Assembly (NCBI RefSeq): GCF_003934165.1
Contig: NZ_RKST01000007.1
Coordinates: forward strand, 62,001-126,000
Length of the DNA stretch: 64,000 bases
DNA from: Borborobacter arsenicus
GTDB lineage: Bacteria > Pseudomonadota > Alphaproteobacteria > Rhizobiales > Rhizobiaceae
Reading direction: 5' to 3'
Shown here: positions 17,175 through 34,402 of the stretch, in pieces
How positions within the stretch are numbered: the stretch's first letter is position 1
Layout of the letters: each line of letters begins with the position of its first letter
Translations under genes and position numbers: made by a program
The notes under the pieces: model-generated
The model's database searches: none
What the model was told of the DNA's origin: nothing
The model's input: the letters and a program-made list of their open reading frames with translations, nothing else

Positions 17175-17206
17175 CTGAAGAGTGCGACCGCCCAGCGCCT
17201 CTTCAG
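17175..17206. terminator. bidirectional hairpin between livM and gabD
   Basis: CTGAAGAG (17175-17182) pairs with CTCTTCAG (17199-17206), and the inner GCG pairs with CGC leaving one bulged T. The genes on the two sides converge here, and the right arm overlaps the stop codon of the leftward gene. It is a natural position for a shared terminator. Confidence 0.5.
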
Positions 17207-18660
17207 AGCCCCAACCCGCCGATGCAGACATATTTGGTGTCGAGATAGTCGTCGATGCCCTGATGGCCGCCCTCGCGGCCGAGGCCGGATTCCTTTACCC
17301 CGCCGAACGGCGCCTCGGGCGTGGTGATGATGCCCTCATTGACGCCGACCATGCCGTATTTCAGCCCTTCCATGACCCGGAAGGCGCGGCCGAGGTCGCC
17401 GGTGTAGAAATAGCAGGCCAGCCCGAATTCGGTGTCATTGGCAAGCGCCACCGCCTCCTCCTCCTTCTCGAACTTGAACACCGGCGCCAGCGGCCCGAAG
17501 ATCTCCTCGGTCATGAACTTCATGCCGGTGGTCGCGCCGGCAATCACCGTCGGCTCGAAGAAGGAACCGCCGAGTGCATGGCGCTTGCCGCCCGACACCA
17601 CCTTGCCGCCCTTGGCAACGGCGTCCGCGATGAACTCCTCGACCTTCTCCACCGCCTTGACGTCGATCAGCGGCCCCTGCTGCACGCCGTCTTCCACGCC
17701 CGGGCCGACCTTGAGCTTTTTGGCCGCCGCCGCCAGCTTGTCGACGAAGGCGTCATGGATGCCAGCCTGCACGAAGAAGCGGTTGGTGCACACGCAGGTC
17801 TGGCCCGAATTGCGGTATTTGGCGGCGATCGCGCCTTCCACCGCCCGGTCGAGATCGGCATCGTCGAACACCAGGAACGGCGCATTGCCGCCCAGCTCCA
17901 TCGACACCTTCTTGACCGTGGAGGCCGACTTCTCGATCAGCAGCTTGCCGACCTCGGTCGAGCCGGTGAAGGTGATCTTCTTGACCAGCGGGTTGGCGCA
18001 GATCTCGTCGCCGATCTCGCCGGCCGACCCGGTGACGATGTTGACCACCCCCTTCGGCATGCCGACCTCCTCGCACAGCGCCCCCCAGGCGAGGCCCGAA
18101 TAGGGCGTCTGCGAGGCCGGCTTGACCACCGCCGTGCAGCCCGCCGCAATTGCCGGGCCGATCTTGCGCGACAGCATCGAGGACGGGAAGTTCCATGGCG
18201 TGATGGCGGCGATCACGCCCACCGGCTCGCGCGTCACCAGGACGCGGCGGTCGGCCCAGGGCGAGGGCACCACATCGCCATAGGCGCGGCGCGCCTCCTC
18301 GGCAAACCACAGCACATAGGCGGCCGACGAGGCAATCTCGCCGCGCGATTCGGTCAGCGACTTGCCCTGCTCCAGCGTCAAAAGCTCGGCCAGCGCGTCC
18401 TGGTTGTCCATGATGGCGTCGTGCAGCTTGCGCAAAAGCTTCGAGCGCTCCAGCGCCGAGGTCTTGCGGAAGCTCTGGAAGGCTGTATGGGCGGCCTCGA
18501 TCGCCCGCCTGGTCTCGGCCGCGCCTGAGCGCGGCACCGTGCCGAGCCTCAAGCCGGTGGCCGGGTTGATCACGTCGATCGTCTTGCCGCTGTCGGCCTG
18601 CACCCACGCACCGTCGATCAGATTGGCCTCGCGCATGAAATGACTGGTCTTCTGGAGCAT
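17203..18660 (-). CDS. gabD: NAD(P)-dependent succinate-semialdehyde-type dehydrogenase
   Basis: A 485-aa aldehyde dehydrogenase with ITPWNFPSSM, cofactor loop FTGSTEVGK, the general-base Glu in MELGGNAPFLVF and the nucleophile Cys in NSGQTCVCTNR, ending with PFGGVKESGLGREGG. The PSSM motif and Cys pair are GabD-like. AAGGAAAGG precedes the ATG. It is last in a leftward set with a GntR regulator and a D-2-hydroxyacid dehydrogenase, so the real substrate may be another semialdehyde. In the HglS-type pathway an aminoadipate-semialdehyde/piperideine-6-carboxylate dehydrogenase is needed, and this is the only aldehyde dehydrogenase in the island. Confidence 0.8.
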   Translation of the reverse strand: MLQKTSHFMREANLIDGAWVQADSGKTIDVINPATGLRLGTVPRSGAAETRRAIEAAHTAFQSFRKTSALERSKLLRKLHDAIMDNQDALAELLTLEQGKSLTESRGEIASSAAYVLWFAEEARRAYGDVVPSPWADRRVLVTREPVGVIAAITPWNFPSSMLSRKIGPAIAAGCTAVVKPASQTPYSGLAWGALCEEVGMPKGVVNIVTGSAGEIGDEICANPLVKKITFTGSTEVGKLLIEKSASTVKKVSMELGGNAPFLVFDDADLDRAVEGAIAAKYRNSGQTCVCTNRFFVQAGIHDAFVDKLAAAAKKLKVGPGVEDGVQQGPLIDVKAVEKVEEFIADAVAKGGKVVSGGKRHALGGSFFEPTVIAGATTGMKFMTEEIFGPLAPVFKFEKEEEAVALANDTEFGLACYFYTGDLGRAFRVMEGLKYGMVGVNEGIITTPEAPFGGVKESGLGREGGHQGIDDYLDTKYVCIGGLGL

Positions 18661-18732
18661 CGTCTTGCCTTTCCTTGAAGGACTGAAAGAGGGACCCGGC
18701 AGCCGGGTCGTTATGATTGCGGTTCGGCCTGT

Positions 18733-19653
18733 TCAGCTTGACAGTGCGCGCAGATCTTCCTGGAGCAGATCAAACCCTCCGGACAGTAGGCGAACCATCG
18801 CCTCCCGGGATTTGAAGGCGGCGTGGGAAGTCAGCGTCACATTATCGAGTGTTGTGAGCGGATGATCACCTGGCAGCGGCTCCTGCTCGAAAACGTCGAG
18901 GGCGGCATGTGCGATCCGTCTCTCCCGCAGCAGATCGACAAGCGCCTTCTCGTCGACGATAGCGCCGCGCGCGACATTCACCAGAACGGCGTCCGGGCGC
19001 AGCTTCTCAAGTTTTTCCCGGTCGATCAGACCGATCGTAGCGTCGTTGAGGGCCAGATGGAGCGAGACGACATGCGATGTTTGTAGCAGGTCGTCTAAAG
19101 TGACCTCTTTGCAGGGCAGGTCGGCCGGGACGCCACTGCGGTTCCAGGCGACTACTTCCATGCCGAAGGCGTCAGCCATCCGGATGAGTTCGCGCCCGAT
19201 GCCGCCGGTGCCGATCACGCCCAGCCGCTTGCCGGCAAGCTCGACACCGACGGGGGCCACCCATTCGCCACGCCGCATTTCGCGATCCATCCTGGTAAGG
19301 CTCCGCGCGCCGGCCAGAATCAGCGCGAAAGCATGTTCGGCTATGGTGCGATCGCCATAGCCGCGCACAGTGCGCACATTGATGCCCAGCTTTTCGGCGG
19401 CGGCGACGTCGATGTAGGTCGAAGCGCCCGTGCCAAGGAAGACGATGGTGCGCAGCGCCGTGCAACGCTTCAACATCGCCTCATCCATGATCGTGTGGCC
19501 GTTGATCACGCCGACGGCGCCATCCAACATCGCCTCCAGCGTTGCCGGGTCCGGATCACCCATATGGATGGCAAGGCCCGGAACCTTGTCGAGAATGGCC
19601 GGCGTAAGAACTGACTGCCCGAAATCGGTGCAGTCGATATAAACACTCTTCAT
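18733..19653 (-). CDS. D-2-hydroxyacid dehydrogenase (NAD-dependent)
   Basis: A 306-aa protein of the D-isomer-specific 2-hydroxyacid dehydrogenase family. Rossmann motif GVIGTGGIGRELIRMA, catalytic Arg in NVARGAIVDE, Glu in DVFEQEPLPGDHP and His in LTSHAAFKS. It would reduce a 2-oxoacid or oxidise a D-2-hydroxyacid. It lies between the GntR gene and the aldehyde dehydrogenase and is transcribed with them. The substrate is unknown; in context 2-oxoadipate, 2-hydroxyglutarate or a related dicarboxylate is an attractive guess. Confidence 0.82.
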   Translation of the reverse strand: MKSVYIDCTDFGQSVLTPAILDKVPGLAIHMGDPDPATLEAMLDGAVGVINGHTIMDEAMLKRCTALRTIVFLGTGASTYIDVAAAEKLGINVRTVRGYGDRTIAEHAFALILAGARSLTRMDREMRRGEWVAPVGVELAGKRLGVIGTGGIGRELIRMADAFGMEVVAWNRSGVPADLPCKEVTLDDLLQTSHVVSLHLALNDATIGLIDREKLEKLRPDAVLVNVARGAIVDEKALVDLLRERRIAHAALDVFEQEPLPGDHPLTTLDNVTLTSHAAFKSREAMVRLLSGGFDLLQEDLRALSS

Positions 19654-19686
19654 ATTGCGTACCTGAACTGGTGGAAAAAGCTGGTT

Positions 19687-20379
19687 TCAGCCCAAGGTGC
19701 TGATCGGCTCCTGGGGCAGGCCGAGATGCAGCCGGGCGAAGCTGTGGATGTGGTAGCGCATCTCGGCGTCGGCGACGGCTGCGTCGCGGCGATGCAGAGC
19801 GCTCAGGATTCGTTTGTGTTCGACAATGGCGCGCTCCACCCAGCCTGGCGTCACCACTTCGCGGCCGCGTACCAGCCGAACCTTGTCATGGGTTGAGACC
19901 AACTGGCGCAGCAGGAAGGCGTTTTGCGCGGCCGCCGCTATTGTCAGGTGGAACATGCTGTCGAGCCCGGCAAACGCCGCGAGATCATGGCGCACCAGTG
20001 CCGCGGACTGGTCTTCGACCTGGGCGGACAGCTTCGCCATAGCCTGATCGTCGGCGCGTTCGATGCAAAGCCGCACCGCTGTGGTCTCGAGTGCTTCACG
20101 GACCTCGTAGATGTCGCGGATATCGGTGGAAGTGAGTTCCGTCACGCGATAGAAACGCCCATCGCGCGTAACAAGGCCTTCGTCCAGAAGGTGGCGCAGC
20201 GCTTCGCGAACGGGTGTGCGGCTGACGCCGTAACGCTGACCGAGCTCGATCTCCTGCAATGTCGTCCCCTGCGTGAACTCAAGCGAGAAGATGTCGGCCT
20301 TCAGGCGCTCATAGACCGTGCTGCCAAGCGCCATTCCAGGCGCCTGCCAGCCGGCCGTCACTGTTTCAATGTCGAGCAT
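19687..20379 (-). CDS. GntR-family (FCD) regulator of the HglS-type island
   Basis: A 230-aa repressor-type protein with an N-terminal winged helix (VYERLKADIFSLEFTQGTTL, LGQRYGVSRTPVREALRHLL) and a helical FCD ligand domain with likely metal-binding His residues (FHLTIAAAAQ, HKRILSALHRRD, RYHIHSFARLH). GGAGG lies 6 bases before the ATG. GTATAC sites start 17 bases upstream of its own start codon and recur at three more positions before the DAO and transporter genes. I infer that it autoregulates and controls both arms of the island. Confidence 0.85.
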   Translation of the reverse strand: MLDIETVTAGWQAPGMALGSTVYERLKADIFSLEFTQGTTLQEIELGQRYGVSRTPVREALRHLLDEGLVTRDGRFYRVTELTSTDIRDIYEVREALETTAVRLCIERADDQAMAKLSAQVEDQSAALVRHDLAAFAGLDSMFHLTIAAAAQNAFLLRQLVSTHDKVRLVRGREVVTPGWVERAIVEHKRILSALHRRDAAVADAEMRYHIHSFARLHLGLPQEPISTLG

Positions 20380-20393: not shown

Positions 20394-20522
20394 AGGTATA
20401 CTCAATTGCCCTTGTTTGTCTCAGATATCAATACTAAAGCGTTTGCACAGCCAGAAATTCCAACTTATGTATACCGGAATGCAGACCGGCGCTACGCCGC
20501 TTATCTGGGAGGATTGCGAATG
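20394..20522 (+). promoter_or_regulatory. regulatory cassette A: operator pair, promoter, Shine-Dalgarno
   Basis: AGGTATACTCAATTG starts at 20394. The -35 TTGCAC is at 20443-20448 and, 17 bases on, TATGTA at 20466-20471 acts as a probable -10 merged with a second GTATAC (20469-20474, context TTATGTATACCGGAAT). GGGAGGATTGCGAATG follows at 20507-20522. Every element has a counterpart in the same order 1.74 kb downstream (cassette B, before the transporter). Probable GntR-controlled promoter reading toward the DAO gene. The rest of the 350-base gap (20523-20729) shows no further signal apart from the two short frames listed separately. Confidence 0.6.
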
Positions 20523-20667: not shown

Positions 20668-20729
20668 CCCAAGTTCCGCTTTTCCTCCGTGAAATGAAAT
20701 CGACCCAAAGACCAACAGCGAGGGGCTCC

Positions 20730-22019
20730 ATGCGACCTTATACAGCTTATTACAGCGTAAGCGGATGGAACCAGATCCAAACCGACAGCGGACGTTGCCA
20801 TGACAAAGTTCTGGAAGGCAACCAGCGCGCGAAATTTGCCATCGTCGGCGCCGGTTTTGCTGGGGCCGCGACGGCGCGGCGATTGGCCGAGCTCTACCCC
20901 GGCGAGGAGATCATTCTTCTGGACGCCCTTCCGGCCGGCGAAGGGGCGGCGGGAAGAAGCTCGGGTTTCATGCTGGATCGAGTTGAGACCAAGATCGACG
21001 CCCGAAACACCGGACCGCAGGCCGATTGGCAAACGGCGATCCTGCAGGCGGGGCTGGGATGGCTGAAACAAACGACATCGGGTCACGGCATCGATTGCGA
21101 TTGGCACGATATCGGGCACTACAAGACTTCCACGACGCTGCAGGGGGCTCGTGAACTCGACGGCCTGCTGGCCAGATTGGATTCAAAAGGGATATCCTAC
21201 CGTCGCCTTTCCAGCCAGGATATCGGCGACGAGATGGGCACCGCGCATTGCACCAATGGCGTATGGCTCCCCAACTGCGTGCTCGTTCAGCCGGCCCGGC
21301 TCATACATGGCCTGCTGAGTACCTTGCCCGAACAGGTCAAGGTCTACACGAAATCGCCGGTCGATCGCATCGCCATGGGCAACCCTCACACGCTTCACGT
21401 GGGGCCGCATGAAATCAAGGCTGATGTCGTCATCTTGTGCACCAATGTCACCCTCCCGTTTTTCGGCTATGGCGGCGACCGGCAGCTCACCGTTTACACC
21501 TATGCCGGCATGACACCGGAGCTCGATGACGTGGAAATGGCCAAGCTTGGGATGGGTGCCACCTGGGGCGCCACCCCGGTGGAAAGGCTTGGCGCCACCA
21601 CGCGCAAGCTGACGTCAAGGCGCTTCCTGTTCAGAACCGGTTTCTCTTATAAAAACGAACTGCCTCCCGCCGAGATCGGCACCGTCCTTCGCGAGATGTA
21701 TTCCAAGCATTTTCCGCAGATGAAGAACCACACCTTCGAATACAGCTGGGGCGGTGCGCTGAGCATGACCAGGAACGGTGATCCGATCTTCGGCAAAATG
21801 GCCAGGAATGTTTATGCGCTGTCGGCCTGCAATGCCTCCGGCATTCTGAAGATGACCGCTTTGGGCAAGCTTCTGGCCGAATCGATAAAGGGCGTAGACA
21901 GCGCTTTGCTGCAGGATACCGAACGGTTTTCCAAGCCCAGCTGGATCCCGCCAGAACCGCTGCGCAGCATCGGTGTCAGCTTCAACCTGTCGCGCATGAA
22001 AAAAGCCATGCGTAGCTAG
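20730..22019 (+). CDS. FAD-dependent amino acid/amine oxidoreductase (DAO family) 1
   Basis: A 429-aa DAO-fold flavoprotein: Rossmann motif AIVGAGFAGAATARRLAE at about residues 36-53, FAD loop GEGAAGRSSGFML, and C-terminal NASGILKMTALGKLLAE. ATG 20730 is preceded by GAGGGG; an in-frame ATG 36 bases earlier lacks a ribosome site. The family oxidises the C-N bond of amino acids or amines (PuuB-like gamma-glutamylputrescine oxidases, sarcosine and pipecolate oxidases). It has its own GTATAC promoter and is separated from the transporter genes by 237 bases. Substrate not determinable. Confidence 0.75.
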   Translation: MRPYTAYYSVSGWNQIQTDSGRCHDKVLEGNQRAKFAIVGAGFAGAATARRLAELYPGEEIILLDALPAGEGAAGRSSGFMLDRVETKIDARNTGPQADWQTAILQAGLGWLKQTTSGHGIDCDWHDIGHYKTSTTLQGARELDGLLARLDSKGISYRRLSSQDIGDEMGTAHCTNGVWLPNCVLVQPARLIHGLLSTLPEQVKVYTKSPVDRIAMGNPHTLHVGPHEIKADVVILCTNVTLPFFGYGGDRQLTVYTYAGMTPELDDVEMAKLGMGATWGATPVERLGATTRKLTSRRFLFRTGFSYKNELPPAEIGTVLREMYSKHFPQMKNHTFEYSWGGALSMTRNGDPIFGKMARNVYALSACNASGILKMTALGKLLAESIKGVDSALLQDTERFSKPSWIPPEPLRSIGVSFNLSRMKKAMRS

Positions 22020-22137: not shown

Positions 22138-22259
22138 AGGTATACCCAAATTGTGTGGTTTGCTCAAATTCCCATTGCATAGTAAAAAAATCTCTGTTTA
22201 TGTATACCGAAATCGGCGAGCATGCGCTGCGCTGCGAGTAACCGGGAGGACTGGGAATG
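22138..22259 (+). promoter_or_regulatory. regulatory cassette B: operator pair, promoter, Shine-Dalgarno
   Basis: AGGTATACCCAAATTG starts at 22138. TTGCAT (22175-22180) and TATGTA (22199-22204, spacer 18) form a promoter whose -10 is merged with the second GTATAC (22202-22207, context TTATGTATACCGAAAT). GGGAGGACTGGGAATG closes the cassette at the start codon of the binding-protein gene. GTATAC-to-GTATAC distance is 62 bases here and 73 in cassette A. Probable control of the whole transporter-oxidase-HglS operon by the GntR protein upstream. Confidence 0.62.
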
Positions 22260-23858
22260 GCTAAATGCGTATCGGATACCCTTGCTGCGGGCATTGCCGC
22301 CGGCCGCAACGATTTCACCCGCCGCCAATTCGGTGGATTGCTGCTCGGAGCCGGCATGGCTGCATTCGGGGCGGGCAGCGGCGTCCTGGCGGGCGTGCGT
22401 CCGGCTCAGGCCGCGCCGGTTCGCGGCGGTTTCCTGAAGGTCGCGCTGTTTTCACAGAGCACGAACGATACTTTCGATCCCGCCAAGCTCGTCCATCCCG
22501 GCGACTATATCCGTTGCACCAGCCTGTTCGGCCATCTGACCCGACTTGACGAGCAGGGCAAGGCTCAGCCGGAACTGGCCGAATCCTTCGAGCCGAATGC
22601 CGACGCCACCGAATGGACGTTCAAGATCCGCAAGGGTATCAGTTTCCATGACGGCGCGCCGCTGACTATGGACGACATCATCTTCTCCATCCTGCGGCAC
22701 AAGGAAGAGAAGGTGGCATCCAATGCCAAGCCGCTTGTCCAGAACGTCAAGGAAGTCGTCGCCGATGGTTCCGACACGATCGTCGTCAAGCTCAGCGAGC
22801 CGGACGCCGACCTGCCGGCGCTGATCGGTACCTTCCAGTTCGCCATCGTCAAGAACGGTACCTATGATTTCTCCTCGCCGGTTGGGACCGGCGCTTTCAA
22901 GGTCAAGGAATTCAGCCCCGGCGTGCGCACCATCTGCGAGCGCAACGAAAATTACTGGAAGGAAGGCCAGCCCTATATTGACGGGTTCGAGATGTTTTCG
23001 ATCGTCGATCACGTGGCCCGCGCCAATGCGCTTCTGTCAGGTGACGTCCACATGGTCGTCGATCTGCGCGGCCCCAGCATCGACGAGGTGGCGAGGTCCT
23101 CGGTGGCGAGCCCGTTCATCACCAATGCGCCGCGCTATACTTCGATCCAGGCCGCCGTCGACATTCCGCCGGGCGATCGGCAGGATCTCGGCCTTGCGCT
23201 GTCCTACCTCATCGACCGCGAAAGGATGATGAAGACGATCCTGCGCGGAAACGGTGTTATCGCCAACGATCATCCGCTCATGAGCGGCTCGGCCTATTAC
23301 GATGCGGCGCTGCCGCAGCGCGTGCTGGACCATGACAAGGCGAAGTTCCATCTGAAAAAGGCCGGAATCGGCAATAGCCGCATTGAACTGCACGTATCCG
23401 ACGCTTCCGCCTTCAGCGTGGAGATCGGCCAGCTGCTGCAGCGCGAGGCCTCCACGGTCGGCCTGAACCTCGATTTACGGCGCGAGCCTGCGGACAGCTA
23501 CTGGAGTGCGGTTGCAGGCAAGCGCGCTTTGTTTGCCGCAACGTTCAATCCGCGGCCGACCTACAACATGCTGCTCAATCTGGCCTGGAAGTCGGGCGCT
23601 GCCTGGAATTTCTCCCATTACAGCAATCCGGAACTCGACACGCTGATCGACAAGGCGCGCGTTACGCTGGACGAAGCGCTGCGGGCGGAAATCTACAGCG
23701 ACATCCAGACGACGATCCACAATTCCGGCGCCCTGATCCTGCCGGCCTTCATCAGCTTCGTCGACGGCGTGTCCAACAAGGTGCAGGGGCTGACGCCGAT
23801 CCCCGTCGGCGCGCTCGGCGGCTTCAACTTCACAGATCGCGTCTGGCTGACCGCCTGA
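22257..23858 (+). CDS. Dipeptide/nickel-type ABC substrate-binding protein, Tat-exported
   Basis: A 533-aa SBP_bac_5 protein. The N-terminus has a twin-arginine signal (TRRQFGGLLLGAGMAAFGAG) and a cleavage-like AQAAPV near residue 50. Family features include FDPAKLVHPGDYIRC, LAESFEPNADATEWTFKIRK and GISFHDGAPLTMDDI. It starts the importer operon with permeases DppB/DppC type and a fused double ATPase. The neighbouring amino-acid-type FAD oxidases suggest an amino acid, opine or small peptide as ligand. Confidence 0.82.
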   Translation: MAKCVSDTLAAGIAAGRNDFTRRQFGGLLLGAGMAAFGAGSGVLAGVRPAQAAPVRGGFLKVALFSQSTNDTFDPAKLVHPGDYIRCTSLFGHLTRLDEQGKAQPELAESFEPNADATEWTFKIRKGISFHDGAPLTMDDIIFSILRHKEEKVASNAKPLVQNVKEVVADGSDTIVVKLSEPDADLPALIGTFQFAIVKNGTYDFSSPVGTGAFKVKEFSPGVRTICERNENYWKEGQPYIDGFEMFSIVDHVARANALLSGDVHMVVDLRGPSIDEVARSSVASPFITNAPRYTSIQAAVDIPPGDRQDLGLALSYLIDRERMMKTILRGNGVIANDHPLMSGSAYYDAALPQRVLDHDKAKFHLKKAGIGNSRIELHVSDASAFSVEIGQLLQREASTVGLNLDLRREPADSYWSAVAGKRALFAATFNPRPTYNMLLNLAWKSGAAWNFSHYSNPELDTLIDKARVTLDEALRAEIYSDIQTTIHNSGALILPAFISFVDGVSNKVQGLTPIPVGALGGFNFTDRVWLTA

Positions 23859-23885
23859 CGTCGATCTACACCGCATCCTCCCAGC

Positions 23886-23916
23886 GCGGCCGGGGTCGCT
23901 TCATAGCCCCGGCCGC
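23886..23916 (+). promoter_or_regulatory. perfect hairpin after the SBP gene
   Basis: GCGGCCGGGG (23886-23895) pairs perfectly with CCCCGGCCGC (23907-23916) around an 11-nt loop, 27 bases after the binding-protein stop. CACTTTTCACG follows. Probably stabilises the upstream mRNA segment or attenuates the rest of the operon. Confidence 0.55.
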
Positions 23917-23956
23917 CACTTTTCACGACAGTGGGCAAAGACAGGAAAGCCGGACG

Positions 23957-24571
23957 ATGAAACTTGTAGGTCGGTATATGTCTCCCTTTGTCAGGCGCGT
24001 GGCTGTGACCGCCCGGCACTATGGCCTTGCCTATGAGAACGTTCCGCTCTCGACCATTGACGGCCGCGACGGTATCAAGGCCTTCAACCCGATCACCCGT
24101 GTGCCCGTCATCGAGCTTGCCGATGGCACCAGGATTGTCGATTCCAGCGTCATCATCGACTATTTCGATACGCAGGTGGCGCCTGAGAAACGGCTGGTTC
24201 CGCCAGCCGGCGCCGGCCGTGTCCGCATCCTGTCGCTCACCGCGATTGCGCTTGGCTCGGCCGAGAAAATGATACTGTCCTATTACGAGCAGCACCGCAG
24301 ACCTGCAGAGTTCATCTATCGTCCCTGGGTCGAGGCGTGTGATGAACAGGCCTTTGACGGCTATGCCTATCTTGAGTCCGAACTCGACGGCGCATGGCTG
24401 GCGGGAGAGGATTTTTCGCATGCCGACATTGCGGCTGCAGTGGCAATTTCCACCCTGCGCCGGCTCGACGCGGAAGCGGGCGAGAGGGCGGCGGTGCGCT
24501 TTCCACGGCTTTGCGCGCTGACGGACCGCTGCGAGGACATGCCCGCATTTCGGGGCGTGCCGCTGCCGTGA
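23957..24571 (+). CDS. Glutathione S-transferase-like protein
   Basis: A 204-aa protein with a thioredoxin-fold N-domain (MKLVGRYMSPFVRRVAVTAR, cis-Pro in RVPVIELADG, then DSSVIIDYFD) and an all-helical C-domain containing DFSHADIAAAV. The N-terminal Ser in SPF is the usual catalytic position. It sits between the binding protein and the permease genes, where a GST is unexpected. Possible roles are detoxifying a reactive intermediate such as an imine or aldehyde, or isomerising one; nothing in the sequence decides. Confidence 0.75.
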   Translation: MKLVGRYMSPFVRRVAVTARHYGLAYENVPLSTIDGRDGIKAFNPITRVPVIELADGTRIVDSSVIIDYFDTQVAPEKRLVPPAGAGRVRILSLTAIALGSAEKMILSYYEQHRRPAEFIYRPWVEACDEQAFDGYAYLESELDGAWLAGEDFSHADIAAAVAISTLRRLDAEAGERAAVRFPRLCALTDRCEDMPAFRGVPLP

Positions 24572-24597
24572 TGCCGGGCTGATCGAGAAGGTTTTCG

Positions 24598-26408: not shown

Positions 26409-28084
26409 ACGGCTCTCCCTTGCTTCACATCGACAATCTTCTGGTCACGCCCAGTGTGGGCGGCCGGCCGGTCGTCAACGGCATATCTCTCAGCGTCGCC
26501 AAGGGCGAGGTGCTGTCGTTGATCGGCGAATCCGGTTCGGGCAAGACCACGCTGGCACTGAGCGCGCTCGGCCGGGTGCGGCCCGGCCTCATGGTGCGTC
26601 GCGGCAGCGTGCGGCTGGACGGCCGCGACATGATTTCGGCGTCCCAAAGCGATCTGCGCCGATTGCGCGGACGCGCGGTATCCTATATCGCCCAAAGTGC
26701 GGCCATGTCGTTCAACCAGCGCATGCGGCTCGACCGGCAGGTCACCGAGCCGGCGCGCATGCATGACGCGATGCCGACGGCGGAAGCGATCCGCCGGGCG
26801 CATGAACTGTACCGGAAGCTCGACCTGCCCAATGCCGATGTCATCGGTTCGCGCTATCCGCACCAGGTCTCGGGCGGCCAGTTACAGCGCTTCATGATCG
26901 CCATGGGCCTGCTGCTCCATCCCAATCTCGTCGTCTGCGACGAGCCGACCAGTGCGCTGGACGTGACCACGCAGGTCGAAGTTTTGCGCGCGCTCAAGGC
27001 CGGCATCCGTGACAACGAGACGGCTGCCCTCTTCGTCAGCCATGACCTTGCCGTGGTGGCGCAGGTGGCTGACCGCATCGCGGTCCTGAAGAAGGGCGAC
27101 CTGATCGAATGCGGCACCACGGCTGAAATCCTGACCAACCCGCAACAGGCCTATACGCGCGAACTCATCGCCGCCTGCAAGCGCTGGCCGGTTTCGATTT
27201 CCACGCCGCCTGCGGCCGAAGAGCGTCCGGCGGGCAGGGTCCATCTTGAGGCCGACCGCATCGTTGCCGGCTTCGGCCCGGTGAGCGACGGCAAACCGGC
27301 GGTAACGATCCTCAAGGATGTCTCGCTCAAGGTGAAGCGCGGCCAGGTGGTTGCGGTGATCGGGGAATCCGGCTCCGGCAAGAGCACGCTGGCGCGGGTC
27401 ATCGCCGGCCTGCATGCGCAGGTAGGCGGTGAGGTCAGCCTGGCAGGAGGTGTCTTGCCTCGCACCATCGGCAAGCGGTCGCGTGAGGAATTGCGGCGGG
27501 TCCAGATGGTGTTCCAGTCCGCCGACACGGCGCTGAATTCCAAGCACACGGTCGGCAATATACTTGACCGCGTGCTGCGGTTCTTCGGTCACGTGCCGCG
27601 CGCCCAGCGGCCGGCCCGCATTGCCGAGCTGCTGACGATGGTCCGGCTTCCGGCTGAATATGCCAACCGCCGGCCAAGCCAGCTTTCCGGCGGCGAGAAG
27701 CAGCGCGTCAACCTCGCCCGCGCGCTGGCGGCCGAGCCCGAAGTCCTGCTGTGCGACGAGATCACGTCGGCGCTCGATACGGTCGTGGCGGCGTCGATCG
27801 TCAGCCTGGTCGAAGACCTGCGCGACCGGCTCAATCTGGCGATCGTGTTCATCAGCCACGACATGGCGACCGTCGCAGCACTCGCCGATGAAGTCGTCGT
27901 GCTGCAGAAAGGCGCGGTGGTGGAGACTGGTCCGGCGCGCGCGGTGCTGTCGCAGCCGCAAAGTGCCTACACGCAACTGCTGCTCAGTTCCGTGCCGGAG
28001 CTACGTACAAGGTGGCTGGAAGATTCCGCGCCGGGTGCGGCCCGCTGGAAGGAAACGGCTTTACCTGCAGAAGCCAGGGTGTGA
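26405..28084 (+). CDS. Fused DppD-DppF double ABC ATPase
   Basis: A 559-aa protein with two complete ATPase domains. Domain 1 has Walker A GESGSGKTTLAL, signature VSGGQLQRFMIAMGL and Walker B VVCDEPTSALDV. Domain 2 has GESGSGKSTLARV, LSGGEKQRVNLARAL and VLLCDEITSALDT, with an H-loop in both (FVSHD, FISHD). Domain 2 lacks the usual Pro of the Walker B DEP (it reads DEI). Oligopeptide-type importers normally use two separate ATPases; fused forms are common in proteobacteria. 73 bases separate it from the FAD gene that follows. Confidence 0.85.
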   Translation: MNGSPLLHIDNLLVTPSVGGRPVVNGISLSVAKGEVLSLIGESGSGKTTLALSALGRVRPGLMVRRGSVRLDGRDMISASQSDLRRLRGRAVSYIAQSAAMSFNQRMRLDRQVTEPARMHDAMPTAEAIRRAHELYRKLDLPNADVIGSRYPHQVSGGQLQRFMIAMGLLLHPNLVVCDEPTSALDVTTQVEVLRALKAGIRDNETAALFVSHDLAVVAQVADRIAVLKKGDLIECGTTAEILTNPQQAYTRELIAACKRWPVSISTPPAAEERPAGRVHLEADRIVAGFGPVSDGKPAVTILKDVSLKVKRGQVVAVIGESGSGKSTLARVIAGLHAQVGGEVSLAGGVLPRTIGKRSREELRRVQMVFQSADTALNSKHTVGNILDRVLRFFGHVPRAQRPARIAELLTMVRLPAEYANRRPSQLSGGEKQRVNLARALAAEPEVLLCDEITSALDTVVAASIVSLVEDLRDRLNLAIVFISHDMATVAALADEVVVLQKGAVVETGPARAVLSQPQSAYTQLLLSSVPELRTRWLEDSAPGAARWKETALPAEARV

Positions 28085-28157
28085 CGGCGGCGCAACCCTC
28101 CCTGCATGGCCGCTCTGTCTGAGCGGCAACCATGATGCAAATTTCTGGAGCATTTTA

Positions 28158-29723
28158 GTGACCAAGCAACTATCGGAGATCGACAATCAGGCTTACGACG
28201 TGGTCGTGATTGGCGGTGGCGCGGCTGGCGCGAGTGCGGCGCAGAACCTTGCCGCAACCGGCTACAAGGTCCTGCTGCTCGACAAGGGCGATTTCGGCAG
28301 CGGCACCAGCAGCAGGTCCAGCCGGCTTCTCTATTGCGGCCTTGCACATCTGTCGCCCGACTATCCGATCTGGAAATTCATCATTCACCCGCGTGATCTC
28401 GTCCGCCGGCTGTGGATGGCGGGGCTGGCGATGAAGTGCCGCGCGCAATTGGTGAAAACCATGCCGGAGCGGTTGAAGCCGCTGACCTTCTTCTTCCCCG
28501 TCTACAAGGGCGGGCAATATCCCGGCTGGAAGGTCGATCTGGGGTTCCGCGCCCTGGAGTGGCTCGGCCTGCGCCGCGTCAGCCTTCAATATAGGCGCAT
28601 GGCGGTCAAGAAGGCGGCCCGCAAATACGGCATGGTCGGCCTGATGGCCGAGCACAAGGATCTGTCGAGCATCGCCGTCTATACCGAATACCAGTATAAC
28701 TGGGCCGAGCGTATCTGCGTCGATACGGTTCTTGATGCCGAGCGCCTCGGCGCCGACATCCGCAACTATGCCCGCGTGACCAGGCTGGAGCAGCGCGGGG
28801 AAGAGAGCTGGGCCGTTACCGTCGAGGATGCGCTTTCGCCGGGCGATACCGTAACCGTCACCGGAAAGATGATCGTCAACACCGCGGGGCCCTGGGTCGA
28901 CCGGGTCAACGCCACGGTCGGCAAGCCTTCGCGCAAGCACCTCGTCGGCATCAAGGGTGTCAATGTGGTCGTCAAGCTGCCGCCCGAATGCGAAGGGCAG
29001 GGGCTGGAGACGATCAGCAGCATTGACCAGCCCTTCTATTGCATGCCTTGGGGCAAATACCACTTCTTCGGGCCGACGGAGACGGTGTTCGAGGGCGACC
29101 CGGACGATGCCCGCGTGTTGCCGGAGGAGATCGATTTCATCCTCGACCAAGCCAATCGGTTGTTCCCGACCCTCAAGCTGAAGCCCAGCGACGTGATCTA
29201 CTCGTGGTGCGGCATCCGTCCGCGTACGTCGAGCATGGCAAAGGAAGGCATCAAGGCGCTGACCATTCATGAACTTGCCGACGAGGGCATGCCGAATGTG
29301 GTCGCGCTGACCGGCACGCCGATCATGAACCATCGCTACGCGGGATCGAAGATCACCGAACGCGTTGGCCGCACCTTGAAGCCGACACGCACCGCACAGC
29401 CCCTGTCTCATGCAGCCAAGCTCTTTCCGGAGAACCAGAACTCGTTGCCGGTCGATCCGGAATACCCGCAGTTCAAGCTGGCCGACCTGCAGCATGCCGC
29501 CCGTCACGAGCATGTAAAAACGCTTGTCGACCTCTTGTTCCGGCGCACCGATCTTGGTTGGACGCACGCAATGGGGCTGAAAGCCGCGCGCCTCGCCGCC
29601 GAGGCGGTTGCCGATACCCTGGGCTGGGACGCAGCGCGGGTCGATCGTGAGGTCAAGCAATATGAGCGCTTCGTGCGCGAGAACTTCAACCCCGCGCATG
29701 CCCGCGAGAAGGTGGCGCAATGA
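28158..29723 (+). CDS. GlpD-like FAD-dependent oxidoreductase of unknown substrate
   Basis: A 521-aa flavoprotein beginning at GTG 28158 (GGAG 7 bases upstream). It has the dinucleotide motif YDVVVIGGGAAGASAAQNLA and the glycerol-3-phosphate-dehydrogenase layout (DFGSGTSSRSSRLLY, NTAGPWVDRVNATVG, YSWCGIRPRT, MNHRYAGSKITERVG). In GlpD the second motif reads SGTSSGSTKLIHGGLRYLE, and the true GlpD of this window (47688-49217) keeps it. Here it reads LLYCGLAHLSPDYP, so glycerol 3-phosphate is an unlikely substrate. The next gene overlaps by 4 bases. I read it as an oxidase or dehydrogenase for the compound imported by this operon. Confidence 0.7.
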   Translation: MTKQLSEIDNQAYDVVVIGGGAAGASAAQNLAATGYKVLLLDKGDFGSGTSSRSSRLLYCGLAHLSPDYPIWKFIIHPRDLVRRLWMAGLAMKCRAQLVKTMPERLKPLTFFFPVYKGGQYPGWKVDLGFRALEWLGLRRVSLQYRRMAVKKAARKYGMVGLMAEHKDLSSIAVYTEYQYNWAERICVDTVLDAERLGADIRNYARVTRLEQRGEESWAVTVEDALSPGDTVTVTGKMIVNTAGPWVDRVNATVGKPSRKHLVGIKGVNVVVKLPPECEGQGLETISSIDQPFYCMPWGKYHFFGPTETVFEGDPDDARVLPEEIDFILDQANRLFPTLKLKPSDVIYSWCGIRPRTSSMAKEGIKALTIHELADEGMPNVVALTGTPIMNHRYAGSKITERVGRTLKPTRTAQPLSHAAKLFPENQNSLPVDPEYPQFKLADLQHAARHEHVKTLVDLLFRRTDLGWTHAMGLKAARLAAEAVADTLGWDAARVDREVKQYERFVRENFNPAHAREKVAQ

Positions 29724-31084
29724 CAACGCTCACGGAGACCCGTTCATCGCGCGTCGCACCAGGATCGACAGTATCCGACCGCAGCGATGGCATCTTTCAT
29801 CCTGACTTCGCGGTCAGGCCGTTCTGGTGGGACGAGGCGCCACCGATGGAAGAGCGCAATCCGCTTCCGTCCAAGGTGGACGTCGCGATCGTCGGTAGTG
29901 GCTATTGCGGTCTTGCAGCCGGGCTGGAGCTTGCCCGGTCGGGCCTGCGTGTCGCGGTGCTCGATTCCGGACGGATAGGCGAGGGGGCCAGCACCCGCAA
30001 TGGCGGCATGGTGAGCGGCGGGCTCAAGCTGCCGGCAGCGATGCGTGCAAAGCTTGGCGAGGAGCGCTTCAAGCGCGTCATCGATGAGGCGGTGGACTCC
30101 TTCCATCACCTTGAAGCCTTCATTGCCGCGGAAAATCTCGACGCCGATTATTCGCGCTGCGGGCGCTTTACCGGCGCGCATTCGCCAGGTGCCTATCGCC
30201 GGCTGGAAAAACAGGCGGTGACGCTGGCGAAGGAGACGGGATTCTCCACCAGCATGGTGCCCAGGGAACGCCAGCGGGAGGAAATAGGCAGCGACTACTA
30301 TCACGGCGGCATGCTTGTCACTGATGGCGGCGGCCTTAACCCGGCGCGATATCACCGCTCGCTGCGTCAGGCGTTCCAGGCTGCCGGCGGCAGCCTGCAC
30401 GGCCTCAGCGCGGTGACTTCGATCGAACGGAGCCAGGGCGGCTTCCGGTTGAAGACCGCCAGCGGCGACCTTTGGGCCGAAAAGGTTTTCGTTGCCACCA
30501 ACGGCTATAGCGGCCGTGTCCTGCCCTATCTGCAGCGTCGCCTGATCCCGATTGCGAGCTTCATCATCGCGACGGAAGAGCTCCCCGAGGACCTTATCCG
30601 TGAACTCAATCCGAATGGCCGCATGCTCGTGGATACAAAGCGGATTCTCTACTATTTCCGCCTTTCGCCAGACCGCAGGCGCATCATTTTCGGCGGACGG
30701 GCGAGCTTTCGCGATTCAGCCGAGCGTCAAACGGCGCAGACCCTGCATCGCTTCATGTGCAACGTGTGGCCGCAATTGAAGAACACCAGGATCACCCATG
30801 CCTGGAAGGGCAATGTCGCCTTTTCCTTCGACATGCTGCCGCATATGGGTGAGCAAGGCGGCATTCACTTTGCCGGCGGCTGCCAGGGCACCGGCGTGAC
30901 GATGGCAACCCATCTCGGCCACCAGACGGCGCGCAAACTGCTTGGCCGTAACAGCGGTCCGTCCGTCTTCGAGGAATTGGCGTTTCCTTCCAATCCGCTC
31001 TACCGGGGCAACCCCTGGTTCCTGCCCATCATCGGCAATTACTACCGGACCCGCGACCGGCTCGAGCAATGGCTGGGGCTGTAG
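29720..31084 (+). CDS. FAD-dependent amino acid/amine oxidoreductase (DAO family) 2, pipecolate-oxidase-like context
   Basis: A 454-aa DAO protein with the PuuB-like N-terminal arm (FAVRPFWWDEAPPMEERNPL), Rossmann motif DVAIVGSGYCGLAAGLELAR, FAD loop GEGASTRNGGMVSGG and C-terminal GGCQGTGVTMATHLGHQTAR. Translationally coupled to the GlpD-like gene. In Pseudomonas putida the HglS gene lies near a DAO-type L-pipecolate oxidase (AmaA), so an analogous cyclic-amine oxidation producing an imine is plausible. The RidA gene at the end of the operon, which deals with imines and enamines, agrees with that. Confidence 0.72.
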   Translation: MTTLTETRSSRVAPGSTVSDRSDGIFHPDFAVRPFWWDEAPPMEERNPLPSKVDVAIVGSGYCGLAAGLELARSGLRVAVLDSGRIGEGASTRNGGMVSGGLKLPAAMRAKLGEERFKRVIDEAVDSFHHLEAFIAAENLDADYSRCGRFTGAHSPGAYRRLEKQAVTLAKETGFSTSMVPRERQREEIGSDYYHGGMLVTDGGGLNPARYHRSLRQAFQAAGGSLHGLSAVTSIERSQGGFRLKTASGDLWAEKVFVATNGYSGRVLPYLQRRLIPIASFIIATEELPEDLIRELNPNGRMLVDTKRILYYFRLSPDRRRIIFGGRASFRDSAERQTAQTLHRFMCNVWPQLKNTRITHAWKGNVAFSFDMLPHMGEQGGIHFAGGCQGTGVTMATHLGHQTARKLLGRNSGPSVFEELAFPSNPLYRGNPWFLPIIGNYYRTRDRLEQWLGL

Positions 31085-31130
31085 GCCAAATGCGTGCAGC
31101 ATGGATGAAAGCCGACCGGAGATCTTGAAC

Positions 31131-32561
31131 ATGGACGCCACCACTGCCATCGCAAGTGACGATCTGGCCGCCCGGCTGAGGCAGGCGCTCGGCGACGATC
31201 GCGTCATTACCGATTCCGACGGCCTTGAGCCCTTCCTGCATGAGGAGCGCGGCCTTTACCGCGGTGCTGCGAAAATCGCCGTCCTGCCGCGATCGACAGA
31301 GGAAGTGGCGACGGCGGTGCGCATCTGTGCCGAGGCGGGTGTTCCGGTCGTGCCGCAGGGTGGCAATACCGGTCTGGTCGGTGGCGCAGTCACCGGTGCC
31401 GGGGAGGTGGTGATATCGCTGAAGCGCATGAACCGCATACTCGGCGTCGATGCGATCGATTACACCATGACGGTCGAGGCCGGGGCCATTCTGGAGACGA
31501 TCCAGAATGCCGCCGAAGAAAAGGATTGCCTGTTTCCGTTAAGCCTCGGGGCCGAGGGAAGCTGCCAGATTGGCGGCAACATCGCCAGCAATGCTGGCGG
31601 TATCAATGTGCTGCGCTATGGCAATACGCGCGACCTTGTGCTCGGTCTCGAAGTGGTGTTGCCGGACGGCCGCATCTGGAACGGCCTGCGCGCGCTTCAC
31701 AAGGACAATACCGGCTATGCGCTGAAGCATCTCTTCATCGGGTCGGAAGGGACGCTCGGCATCATAACCAAGGCGGTGCTGAAACTATTTGCGCTGCCGC
31801 GAGAGCGGCATACCGCGCTGTGCGTGCTTGCCGATGTCGACCATGCCCTGGCCCTGCTGGCAAGGCTGAAGGCACGGGCCAGCGAAGCCATCACCGCCTT
31901 CGAGCTGATGTCGGGCTTTGCGCTCGATCTGGCGAGCGCCCATAGTGGCGATGCAAAGCCCATTGCGGATGCCTATCCATGGTTTGTCCTGCTGGAGCTT
32001 TCCGGATCACAGGGCGGCAATGCGCTGCGCGAAACCATGGAAGAGGTGCTCGGCGAGGCGCTCGAACAGGAACTCATCCAGGACGCGGTGATTGCCGAGA
32101 GCCTTGACCAGGCGGCTGTCTTCTGGCGCCTGCGCGAGCGTATTCCGGAGGCACAGAAGCCGGCGGGCGCCAGCATCAAGCATGATGTGGCGGTCCCTGT
32201 TTCGCGCATTCCCGAGTTCCTGCGCGCGGCCGATGCTGCGGTCATCGCGGCAAGGCCCGGCACGCGCCTGTGTGCCTTCGGTCATCTCGGCGACGGCAAT
32301 CTTCACTACAATCTGACCCAGCCGGAAGGCATGGATCCCCAGGCCTTTCTCGATTGCTGGCGGGAGATGAACGATATCGTTCATGGCATCGCCGTCCGGC
32401 TTGGCGGCTCGTTCTCGGCCGAGCATGGCATCGGGCTGCTGAAGGCCGGCGAATTGAGCCACTACAAGGAGCCGATCGAGCTGGAATTGATGCAGCGCGT
32501 CAAGGCCGCCCTCGACCCTTCGGGCACGATGAACCCCGGCAAGGTGATCGGCACCGCCTGA
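31131..32561 (+). CDS. FAD-linked D-2-hydroxyglutarate dehydrogenase-like oxidase
   Basis: A 476-aa FAD_binding_4/GlcD-type protein: PCMH domain with VPVVPQGGNTGLVGGAV and SLGAEGSCQIGGNIASNAGG, then C-terminal FGHLGDGNLHYN (metal-site His) and SAEHGIGLLK. ATG 31131 has GGAG 9 bases upstream; an in-frame ATG lies at 31101. D-2-hydroxyglutarate and D-lactate dehydrogenases share this fold. Lying immediately before the 2-oxoadipate-to-2-hydroxyglutarate enzyme, it is best read as the next step, D-2-hydroxyglutarate to 2-oxoglutarate. The substrate is inferred from the neighbour. Confidence 0.68.
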   Translation: MDATTAIASDDLAARLRQALGDDRVITDSDGLEPFLHEERGLYRGAAKIAVLPRSTEEVATAVRICAEAGVPVVPQGGNTGLVGGAVTGAGEVVISLKRMNRILGVDAIDYTMTVEAGAILETIQNAAEEKDCLFPLSLGAEGSCQIGGNIASNAGGINVLRYGNTRDLVLGLEVVLPDGRIWNGLRALHKDNTGYALKHLFIGSEGTLGIITKAVLKLFALPRERHTALCVLADVDHALALLARLKARASEAITAFELMSGFALDLASAHSGDAKPIADAYPWFVLLELSGSQGGNALRETMEEVLGEALEQELIQDAVIAESLDQAAVFWRLRERIPEAQKPAGASIKHDVAVPVSRIPEFLRAADAAVIAARPGTRLCAFGHLGDGNLHYNLTQPEGMDPQAFLDCWREMNDIVHGIAVRLGGSFSAEHGIGLLKAGELSHYKEPIELELMQRVKAALDPSGTMNPGKVIGTA

Positions 32562-32639
32562 GACTTCGTAAGTTTGGCAAAGAAATTGGTGCAACCTCGT
32601 ATAGCGCCGGGTTTTTTCTAGATGGGTAAAGGAATGGCC

Positions 32640-34043
32640 ATGCAGCAAAAAATGTTCGTTTCGGCCGATGACATCAGGTCCGCCTTCTCGGCGGCGATGT
32701 CGGAGATGTATCGCAAGGAGGTCCCCGCCTATGGTGAACTCCTGTCGCTGGTGGCAGAGGTGAACCGCGCCATGCTGGAGCATGACCCGCAATTGCGCAG
32801 CCGGCTCGAGCGCTCGGATTCTCTCGACCGCATCTCGGAAGAGCGGCACGGGGCGATCCGCCTCGGTACGGCAGAGGAGCTGGCCATGATGCGCCGGGTC
32901 TTTGCCGTCATGGGCATGTACCCGGTCGGCTATTACGACCTTAGCACGGCGGGCGTGCCGGTCCATTCGACCGCCTTCCGGCCGATCGACGAAGCAGCGC
33001 TCAATCGCAATCCTTTCCGGGTCTTCACTTCGCTGCTTAGGCTCGACCTTCTGGCCGACGAGGCGTTACGCGAGGAAGCCCGTCAAACCCTGGCTGCGCG
33101 CGACATCTTCACGCCGACGACGCGCCGCCTGGTCGAAACGGCCGAGCGTGACGGCGGGCTTGACGAAAGCGACGCCGCTCTGTTCGTTGCCGAGGTGCTG
33201 GAAACCTTCCGCTGGCATGATAGGGCCAGGGTGGATGCCGATCTCTACCGCCGGTTGCACGATGCGCACCGGCTGGTCGCCGACGTGGTGTCGTTCAACG
33301 GTCCCCACATCAATCATCTGACGCCGCGCACGCTCGACATCGACGCCGTGCAACGTGGCATGCCAGCCCGCGGCATCGCGCCGAAGGCTTTCGTTGAGGG
33401 CCCGCCCACGCGCCAGTGCCCGATCCTGCTGCGCCAGACCTCGTTCAAGGCGCTGGAGGAAGACATCTCCTTCCGTGGCAGCGACGGCACCTGGACGACA
33501 GGTTCCCACACCGCCCGCTTCGGCGAGGTCGAACAGCGCGGCATCGCCCTGACGCCGAAAGGCCGCTCGCTTTATGACCGGCTGCTGGAAGAGACGCGCA
33601 AGCATATTCGCCCCACTGCCGACGGCAGCAATGCGGCCGCCTATGTCGATGCGCTGGCGGGCGCTTTTGCGGCCTTCCCCGACGAGTGGGCGGCGATCCG
33701 CAAGGAACGGCTCGGTTATTTCTCCTATTCGCTCGCCGGTGATGGCAAGAATGCCTCGCAGCAGGCGGTTGCTGCGGGCGACATCAATCAGCTCGTCGAG
33801 GCGGGTGTCCTCCAGTTCGATCCGATCGTCTATGAAGATTTCCTACCGGTCAGCGCGGCTGGCATCTTCCGCTCCAATCTGGGCGATGACGAGGCGCAGC
33901 ATTTTGCCGAGAGCCCGAACCAGAAGCTGTTCGAACAGCAGCTTGGCGCAAGGGTGATCGACAGTTTCGAGCAATATGCCGGGATCGAGCAGGCCTCGAT
34001 CGATGCGTGTCTGGCGGCACTCGCCAAATGCGTCACGGCATAG
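32640..34043 (+). CDS. hglS: HglS-type 2-oxoadipate dioxygenase/decarboxylase (DUF1338)
   Basis: A 467-aa DUF1338 protein. I choose ATG 32640, because AAAGGA sits 6 bases upstream. With this start the motif HGAIR places His and Arg at 70 and 74, the NHLTPR His at 226 and the Glu of FGEVEQRG at 296. To my memory the P. putida HglS iron ligands are His70, His226 and Glu294 with Arg74 binding substrate, so numbering and residues agree almost exactly. HglS converts 2-oxoadipate with O2 to D-2-hydroxyglutarate and CO2 in D-lysine/pipecolate catabolism. The gene lies between a D2HGDH-like gene and ridA. Confidence 0.85.
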   Translation: MQQKMFVSADDIRSAFSAAMSEMYRKEVPAYGELLSLVAEVNRAMLEHDPQLRSRLERSDSLDRISEERHGAIRLGTAEELAMMRRVFAVMGMYPVGYYDLSTAGVPVHSTAFRPIDEAALNRNPFRVFTSLLRLDLLADEALREEARQTLAARDIFTPTTRRLVETAERDGGLDESDAALFVAEVLETFRWHDRARVDADLYRRLHDAHRLVADVVSFNGPHINHLTPRTLDIDAVQRGMPARGIAPKAFVEGPPTRQCPILLRQTSFKALEEDISFRGSDGTWTTGSHTARFGEVEQRGIALTPKGRSLYDRLLEETRKHIRPTADGSNAAAYVDALAGAFAAFPDEWAAIRKERLGYFSYSLAGDGKNASQQAVAAGDINQLVEAGVLQFDPIVYEDFLPVSAAGIFRSNLGDDEAQHFAESPNQKLFEQQLGARVIDSFEQYAGIEQASIDACLAALAKCVTA

Positions 34044-34057
34044 ACAGGAGAAGCGCC

Positions 34058-34402
34058 TTGACCATCAAGCGCATCGGCACCCGCCCTCGGTCCAGCGCGA
34101 TCGTCATCCACAACCAGACGGTCTATCTAGCTGGCCAGGTCGGCAAGCCCGGGGACAATGCCGGCGAGCAGACAAGGACCATCCTTGCGTCGATCGACCG
34201 GCTGCTCGAGGAAGCCGGAACCAACAAGTCACGGCTTCTCCAGGCCACGATCTGGCTGGCCGACATGGCCGACTTCGACGAGATGAACAAGGTATGGGAC
34301 GCATGGGTGGCTCCCGGAAACGCGCCGGCGCGGGCCACCGGCGAAGTCCGTCTCGCGCTTCCTGAATACAAGGTAGAGATCGTCGTAACTGCGGCCGTTT
34401 AG
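34058..34402 (+). CDS. RidA-family enamine/imine deaminase
   Basis: A 114-aa YjgF/RidA protein starting at TTG 34058 (AGGAGA 7 bases upstream, 14 bases after hglS). Family features are VYLAGQVGKPGDNAGEQTRT, DRLLEEAGTNKSRLLQATIW and the substrate-binding Arg in APARATGEVRL. RidA proteins hydrolyse reactive imines and enamines released by FAD amino acid oxidases or PLP enzymes. As last gene of an operon with two such oxidases its role is probably to clear their products. Confidence 0.85.
   Translation: MTIKRIGTRPRSSAIVIHNQTVYLAGQVGKPGDNAGEQTRTILASIDRLLEEAGTNKSRLLQATIWLADMADFDEMNKVWDAWVAPGNAPARATGEVRLALPEYKVEIVVTAAV

Follow-up and report, generated by a model that had tools for sequence, protein, structure and literature searches.

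The closest described counterpart of the locus reported here is the end of the D-lysine and pipecolate pathway of Pseudomonas putida, where HglS, a 2-oxoadipate dioxygenase/decarboxylase, and a D-2-hydroxyglutarate dehydrogenase lead 2-oxoadipate to 2-oxoglutarate. Out of seven 2-oxoacids assayed, 2-oxoadipate alone was turned over by P. putida HglS, and Arg74 binds the substrate, the R74A exchange abolishing activity (PMC7286885). The catabolism of ethylenediaminetetraacetate (EDTA) in Chelativorans BNC1 (Epp importer, EmoA, IdaA) involves an oxidase that strips N-carboxymethyl groups as glyoxylate, so that a family-5 binding protein together with a carboxymethyl-removing, glyoxylate-releasing oxidase is a working design (PMC7312458). 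The subject of this report is a catabolic island around HglS in Borborobacter arsenicus, at positions 17,203 to 34,402 of a 64,000-nucleotide stretch of contig NZ_RKST01000007.1, the whole of which is called the window below. It shares with the P. putida pathway the HglS and D-2-hydroxyglutarate dehydrogenase end from 2-oxoadipate to 2-oxoglutarate. We give a probability of roughly 0.55 to the reading that this is a mobile catabolic island, in which an imported N-substituted amino acid is converted to 2-oxoadipate and passed by HglS to 2-oxoglutarate. The best evidence that 2-oxoadipate is made there, suggestive rather than statistical, is that HglS genes of two descents are found joined to the same upper module.

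HglS was found in 27 of the 397 genomes of the order at E<=0.001, three of them being weak matches, and nine 20-kb loci from the 12 same-family genomes with HglS were taken as ordinary operons. All nine carried a LysR regulator and the piperideine-6-carboxylate dehydrogenase AmaB, eight an aminotransferase and seven a D-2-hydroxyglutarate dehydrogenase of either type. Their HglS, AmaB and, where present, aminotransferase were 64-93% identical to those of an Agrobacterium plasmid. Unlike these operons, the island has no LysR, AmaB or aminotransferase, and it has a GntR regulator, an importer, a GlpD-like dehydrogenase, two DAO-family oxidoreductases (DAO1 and DAO2), RidA and a D-2-hydroxyacid dehydrogenase (2HADH). 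No match to the GlpD-like protein, DAO1 or RidA was found in the nine loci; importer matches reached at most 38%, and a DAO 25-27% like DAO2 was present in four of the nine. The island was rejected as an ordinary lysine/pipecolate operon, with AmaB, aminotransferase and LysR missing, an aldehyde dehydrogenase of SSADH type and DAOs that fail the model of the L-pipecolate oxidase AmaA. Lysine or pipecolate as the substrate, along the lines of the preliminary description, is possible and is not favoured, given the missing AmaB and aminotransferase and the failing DAOs. The same description had pointed out that no dedicated aminotransferase is present, which is correct and became the informative point. 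Its view of a catabolic island in which an importer and several flavoproteins are followed by an HglS and D-2-hydroxyglutarate dehydrogenase end towards 2-oxoglutarate is supported.

Gene content and the two-step end

All island genes were confirmed as open reading frames, with families and positions as first described: two DAOs, a GlpD-like flavoprotein, an importer and a glutathione S-transferase (GST) upstream of HglS, and a 2HADH and an aldehyde dehydrogenase leftward. The features, with coordinates in the window, are the following.

17203..18660, minus strand: SSADH-type aldehyde dehydrogenase (TIGR01780, 677.4 bits, cut-off 646)
18733..19653, minus strand: NAD-type D-2-hydroxyacid dehydrogenase, 2HADH (PF02826; in all three islands)
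19687..20379, minus strand: GntR/FCD regulator (PF07729, PF00392; in all three islands)
20396..20401, no strand: GTATAC palindrome, putative GntR operator 1 (TAGGTATACTCAA)
20469..20474, no strand: GTATAC palindrome, putative GntR operator 2
20694..22019, plus strand: DAO1, DAO-family FAD oxidoreductase (PF01266)
22140..22145, no strand: GTATAC palindrome, putative GntR operator 3
22202..22207, no strand: GTATAC palindrome, putative GntR operator 4
22257..23858, plus strand: solute-binding protein (SBP), family 5, NikA/DppA/OppA class (family model)
23957..24571, plus strand: GST (PF13417)
24598..25563, plus strand: ABC permease 1 (family model)
25560..26408, plus strand: ABC permease 2 (family model)
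26405..28084, plus strand: fused double ABC ATPase (family model)
28158..29723, plus strand: GlpD-like FAD dehydrogenase, hallmark of the module (PF01266+PF16901)
29720..31084, plus strand: DAO2, DAO-family FAD oxidoreductase (PF01266)
31131..32561, plus strand: D-2-hydroxyglutarate dehydrogenase-type flavoprotein, 476 aa (PF02913/PF01565)
32622..34043, plus strand: HglS, 2-oxoadipate dioxygenase/decarboxylase (NF049974, 744.8 bits)
34007..34402, plus strand: RidA-family imine hydrolase (PF01042)

The starts of the GlpD-like gene (about 28158) and of the D-2-hydroxyglutarate dehydrogenase-type gene (about 31131) follow from start codon and family match, the longest open reading frames beginning earlier. 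Ten co-directional genes, from SBP to RidA, fill 22257-34402, no gap between them exceeding 98 bp; by their coordinates, four of the nine junctions are overlaps and five are gaps of 26-98 bp. The host genome (5.45 Mb, 107 contigs, completeness 98.5%) has a single HglS, which is the island copy. The island is not marked by its base composition, with a GC content of 0.628 against 0.622 in the window. The GST (23957) and the aldehyde dehydrogenase (17203) may be incidental to it: neither has an orthologue in the corresponding islands of Paralcaligenes or Oceaniglobus described below, the Paralcaligenes island has an AldA-type aldehyde dehydrogenase nearby, and the Oceaniglobus locus gave no aldehyde dehydrogenase match.

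HglS exceeds the equivalog cut-off of NF049974 (744.8 against 550 bits) and can be aligned, from residue 10 to residue 467 of 473, with the solved structure of hydroxyglutarate synthase, 6w1g. Counted from the start at 32622, its H76, R80, H232 and E302 correspond to H70, R74, H226 and E294 of 6w1g; counted from 32640 they become H70, R74, H226 and E296, exactly as they had been named in the preliminary description. The two His and the Glu make up the metal triad. The Val-Ser loop is also kept. The end of the pathway, in which the island HglS would turn 2-oxoadipate into D-2-hydroxyglutarate, the function of its family, is well supported by the family assignment and by the two descents of HglS described below. 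The family matches likewise agree with a D-2-hydroxyglutarate dehydrogenase-type gene before HglS and RidA after it. The former protein scores 325 bits with human D2HGDH (6lpn), above glycolate oxidase (226), LctD (216) and D-lactate dehydrogenase (203), while its best PDB match is the uncharacterised 3pm9 (497 bits). Of the presumed substrate and metal motif residues of human D2HGDH it keeps GHLGDGNLH, SAEHG, RERI and the K-D pair, with Pro in place of the Thr after RERI.

Among the PDB matches listed for the SBP, the best 60 of 91, the closest solved chains are AapF 7kz8 (116.6 bits) and AgaA 6hlx (109.1 bits), the ligand of AgaA being presumably agropinic acid. The AmaA model NF050086 (cut-off 600) is the top NCBIfam model for DAO2, with 156.7 bits, and gives 77.3 bits with DAO1, so that both fail. 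DAO1 was found at E<=1e-80 in one of 385 genomes of the class, the window's own; its best plasmid match was 36.5%, the only close relative seen (70%) belongs to the Paralcaligenes island, and its predicted structure is unusable (two sequences, mean pLDDT 35). The GlpD-like protein was rejected as a member of the GlpD family acting on glycerol 3-phosphate, with 76-120 bits to GlpD/GlpO in PDB and 149-153 bits against GlpD model cut-offs of 352-360. Its predicted structure is weak (pLDDT 62) and the Foldseek TM of about 0.4 places it in the GlpD/DAO superfamily at most. The island has DAO oxidases but no three-part opine oxidase, and no OYE-type or Rieske demethylase is present among its genes or in the Oceaniglobus and Paralcaligenes loci.

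A 49% relative of 2HADH adjoins an importer, a GntR regulator and an NtaA/DmoA-type monooxygenase in Neorhizobium, a context which suggests that 2HADH would take a released 2-oxoacid; glyoxylate reductase is a suggested function. The locus in question, on pNCHU2750a of Neorhizobium sp. NCHU2750 (family-5 importer, 2HADH, GntR and the monooxygenase), has the look of an aminopolycarboxylate-type catabolic cluster.

Recurrence, descent and regulation

Searching 84,980 species genomes with the GlpD-like protein brought up eight loci (L030-L037). In Paralcaligenes ureilyticus (Alcaligenaceae, L037) the matches comprise DAO1 (70%), 2HADH (62%), GntR (57%), SBP (64%), both permeases (77% and 67%), ATPase (72%), the GlpD-like protein (69-70%), DAO2 (69%), RidA (69%, 113/131 residues) and HglS (55%), together with a 984-aa YdiJ-like protein. 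HglS starts there at the base after the end of the YdiJ-like gene (16869/16870 in L037). Oceaniglobus ichthyenteri (Paracoccaceae, L036) has 2HADH (72%), GntR (62%), the GlpD-like protein (76%), DAO2 (69%) and importer proteins of 71-81% (permeases 81% and 72%, ATPase 71%), and a genome search found no HglS. HglS occurs in one of the seven genomes behind L030 and L032-L037, and a TAA flagged inside this match was read as the stop codon just 5' of the HglS start. DAO1 and RidA are thus present in both HglS-bearing islands, and not in the HglS-less Oceaniglobus locus. The island recurs across bacterial classes, beyond a chance neighbourhood; the recurrence proposed for checking in Rhizobiales was found, outside this order, in Paralcaligenes.

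The remaining loci are of another composition. L030 and L032-L035 (Microvirga, Bosea) combine the importer and GlpD-like protein, at 56-71%, with an ornithine-cyclodeaminase-family reductase, an OYE-type flavoprotein and an enolase-superfamily enzyme, while the 3-kb contig L031 carries ATPase and GlpD-like genes. The same cluster of family-5 importer, GlpD-like gene, piperideine/pyrroline-2-carboxylate-reductase-type gene, OYE-type flavoprotein and DgoD-like enolase-superfamily enzyme was seen also in L075 and L121, and without that importer in L079. Outside the window, the best GlpD-like match was 52% in 394 family genomes (16 at E<=1e-100), 53% in 385 class genomes, the window's own aside (15 at E<=1e-60), 43% in 200 genomes of the family of Paralcaligenes, Paralcaligenes aside (6 at E<=1e-100), and 55.8% in 72,556 plasmid records (35 at E<=1e-60). 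The three congeners gave no match at E<=1e-100. The island looks rare, and it looks horizontally mobile or transferable.

The upper module of the three islands is of one descent. Their GlpD-like proteins form one clade (100/100, 19 rows), and so do their DAO2 proteins (100/100, 13 rows), apart from the five DAOs of ordinary HglS loci in the same tree. In the HglS tree of 28 rows, the window copy groups with the HglS proteins of its family (fork 89/87), and a 99/99 branch separates it from the Paralcaligenes copy. A tree that holds the two island copies together was rejected (delta lnL 48.7, AU p=0.0013), in a 28-row test made after a 24-row HglS tree had been seen. The D-2-hydroxyglutarate dehydrogenases are of different type as well, with 476 aa in the window and the 984-aa YdiJ-like protein in Paralcaligenes. 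The HglS end has been added twice, or exchanged once, on an upper module of one descent, and that two sources supplied the same two-step end speaks for 2-oxoadipate as the product of the upper module.

All four GTATAC sites of the 64 kb sit in two intergenic regions, 5' of DAO1/GntR and 5' of SBP. The count alone is ordinary (at least four per 64 kb in 8 of 100 shuffles), and it is the placement that stands out. The extended pattern TNNGTATACNNNA, defined after the sites had been seen, occurs six times over both strands against 0.1 expected; genome-wide there are 14 matches, six of them in the window. In Markov simulations (20,000 per region, regions picked after the fact) at least two sites arose in 0.03% for the GntR/DAO1 region and in none for the SBP region. 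Paralcaligenes has three GTATAC in the 188-bp gap between GntR and binding protein (0.015% of simulations). DAO1 is parted from the ten-gene run by 237 bp that hold the second palindrome pair, which makes two promoters likely instead of one unit. The pairs are putative operators in the two likely promoter regions of a divergent GntR system. Of the earlier view of one unit under one GntR, the control by GntR is supported at the level of sequence, and the single unit is not. Promoter-like sites (1 against 3.6 in shuffles) and terminator-like sites (11 against 13.2) were not in excess.

To the right of the island, at 34791-37869 of the window, SDR, APH-family and acyl-CoA dehydrogenase genes stand in a row, which presumably resembles the ACAD10/11 module; a second GntR gene and a class III CoA-transferase follow.

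The proposed route and its rivals

In the route that we propose, GntR would control two promoters and the family-5 ABC importer would bring in an acid that contains an amine; an N-substituted, opine-like amino acid is the most likely candidate, ahead of plain lysine. The GlpD-like protein and DAO2 would oxidise the imported compound as the upper module, DAO1 and RidA may bring 2-aminoadipate or its imine to 2-oxoadipate without an aminotransferase, and 2HADH probably handles the 2-oxoacid split off the nitrogen. HglS would convert 2-oxoadipate to D-2-hydroxyglutarate, and the dehydrogenase would take the latter to 2-oxoglutarate. Since neither HglS-bearing island has an aminotransferase or AmaB (in Paralcaligenes by canonical queries), FAD oxidation of a C-N bond followed by imine hydrolysis by RidA would be the economical source of 2-oxoadipate. 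Tentatively, and with more doubt than conviction, we suggest in particular an undescribed route, in which an imported N-substituted 2-aminoadipate, an opine-like natural product, yields 2-oxoadipate by way of FAD oxidases and RidA and is finished by HglS, without lysine, piperideine-6-carboxylate or a transaminase, and which was assembled at least twice around a mobile importer-GlpD-DAO2 core. A lysine opine is a possible substrate.

Several points weigh against the imported N-substituted amino acid as source of 2-oxoadipate. The choice of this substrate is one that we infer, and the comparison stands on three islands, two with HglS and one without. The lack of an aminotransferase holds for the island genes, aminotransferases elsewhere in the genomes not having been sought. 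In the window's genome a single AmaB exceeds the cut-off (823 bits), on another contig, Paralcaligenes has one of 835 bits and Oceaniglobus none above the cut-off; AmaB thus tracks HglS across the three genomes, which fits a piperideine-6-carboxylate route with AmaB in trans. The 21.5 kb of Oceaniglobus hold no further member of the set, DAO1, RidA and D-2-hydroxyglutarate dehydrogenases elsewhere in that genome not having been sought, and the route leaves unexplained the fate of the product in this HglS-less genome. The same 21.5 kb are without GTATAC and have only a GGTATATC in the gap between GntR and binding protein, which argues against strict operator conservation. The Paralcaligenes HglS branch is long and its exact place unsure, and the differing HglS descents could be one gene exchange instead of two additions.

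Among the alternatives is the import of pipecolate or another lysine-derived cyclic amino acid, its oxidation to piperideine-6-carboxylate by DAO2 or the GlpD-like protein, conversion to 2-aminoadipate by the unlinked AmaB, and then the steps of P. putida. It draws mainly on the AmaB genes elsewhere in both HglS-island genomes and the lack of one over cut-off in Oceaniglobus, and further on AmaA as the best NCBIfam model of DAO2, and on the piperideine/pyrroline-2-carboxylate-reductase-type gene adjoining five relatives of the module (331 bits in L030, cut-off 322; in L032-L035 by homology). DAO2, however, is far below the AmaA cut-off and outside the clade of the five ordinary-locus DAOs, the island aldehyde dehydrogenase is SSADH-type and not AmaB, and AmaB accompanies HglS in nine of nine ordinary operons but not here; we consider this explanation unlikely, while one to be reckoned with. 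An N-methylated cyclic amino acid of homostachydrine type, demethylated after import and then degraded as pipecolate, would fit the GlpD-like relatives found repeatedly in the company of OYE-type demethylase-like genes and of betaine systems (hpbA/hpbD of Paracoccus pantotrophus is one case; the same association in L030, L032-L035, L075, L079 and L121). The three islands, in contrast, form their own GlpD-like clade and are without an OYE-type or Rieske demethylase, which makes this the most improbable of the explanations weighed.

It is also conceivable that HglS and the dehydrogenase are accidental neighbours which serve general lysine catabolism, importer and oxidases being unrelated to them. 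The window HglS is the sole copy in its genome and groups with HglS of its own family, so that it could be an ordinary gene that has moved, and AmaB stands alone elsewhere in the genome. The accident would need repeating in Paralcaligenes, where HglS has a separate descent and directly follows the YdiJ-like gene, and D-2-hydroxyglutarate dehydrogenase, DAO1 and RidA accompany HglS in both islands; we regard an accident as very improbable.

Around the lone AmaB (G000:C4:148654-150075; L147:9474-11084) there is no HglS, LysR or aminotransferase match within 20 kb. Two congeners keep AmaB inside the HglS operon, and in the window's genome the ordinary operon may have come apart. At a distance of 2-3 kb from this AmaB (L147:13225-17760) are a Cas1-like gene and a gene for a 1129-aa Cas9-like protein, both named by sequence appearance. 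In one congener (L040/L041, G399:C6) the HglS operon is intact, and a further HglS match there falls into two pieces, residues 7-244 and 426-468; it looks like a shortened copy.

If the island indeed feeds HglS from an imported compound without transamination, 2-oxoadipate chemistry would gain a second use besides lysine catabolism, the role of HglS in the work cited here, and the ligand of the SBP would point to a natural compound over which bacteria compete. A natural experiment is offered by islands that share the upper module and differ in whether they have HglS and in the descent of their HglS.

Comparison with known systems

Three of 77 plasmid records with HglS were examined. In pTiCFBP4996 and pRiA4 an ordinary HglS operon adjoins an ABC importer, and the incomplete gene table of Azospirillum lipoferum AZO_p2 contains no importer. 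The island resembles pRiA4 (NZ_CP073113.1) in having an importer, a FAD oxidase and RidA near HglS. On pRiA4, however, the importer is of another type, it goes with a (2Fe-2S)/FAD/DAO three-part oxidase in a separate unit, and HglS has its own LysR, AmaB and aminotransferase. The pRiA4 arrangement, an HglS-AmaB-aminotransferase-YdiJ operon beside an opine-oxidase-like importer unit and RidA, is perhaps for a lysine-type opine. This precedent tempers the novelty of an importer, amine oxidase and RidA near HglS, and the preliminary description went too far in calling an importer with HglS a new layout.

The Microvirga/Bosea/Neorhizobium cluster shares a related importer and GlpD-like protein, at 55-71%, with the island, but has no match to DAO1, RidA, D-2-hydroxyglutarate dehydrogenase or HglS, and only a distant DAO2 (32%, L032) and 2HADH (29%, L034) away from the unit. 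With the EDTA catabolism of BNC1 the island has in common a binding protein of the same class; unlike BNC1, it has no EmoA-type monooxygenase, and the EppA entries 6wm6/6wm7 were not among the best 60 of 91 PDB matches of the SBP. The present gene set was the subject of no paper surfaced by a literature search of titles and abstract starts. Set against these systems, the importer beside HglS is known, and the co-directional importer-GlpD-DAO2-D2HGDH-HglS-RidA unit, lacking AmaB and an aminotransferase, adds a new variation on them.

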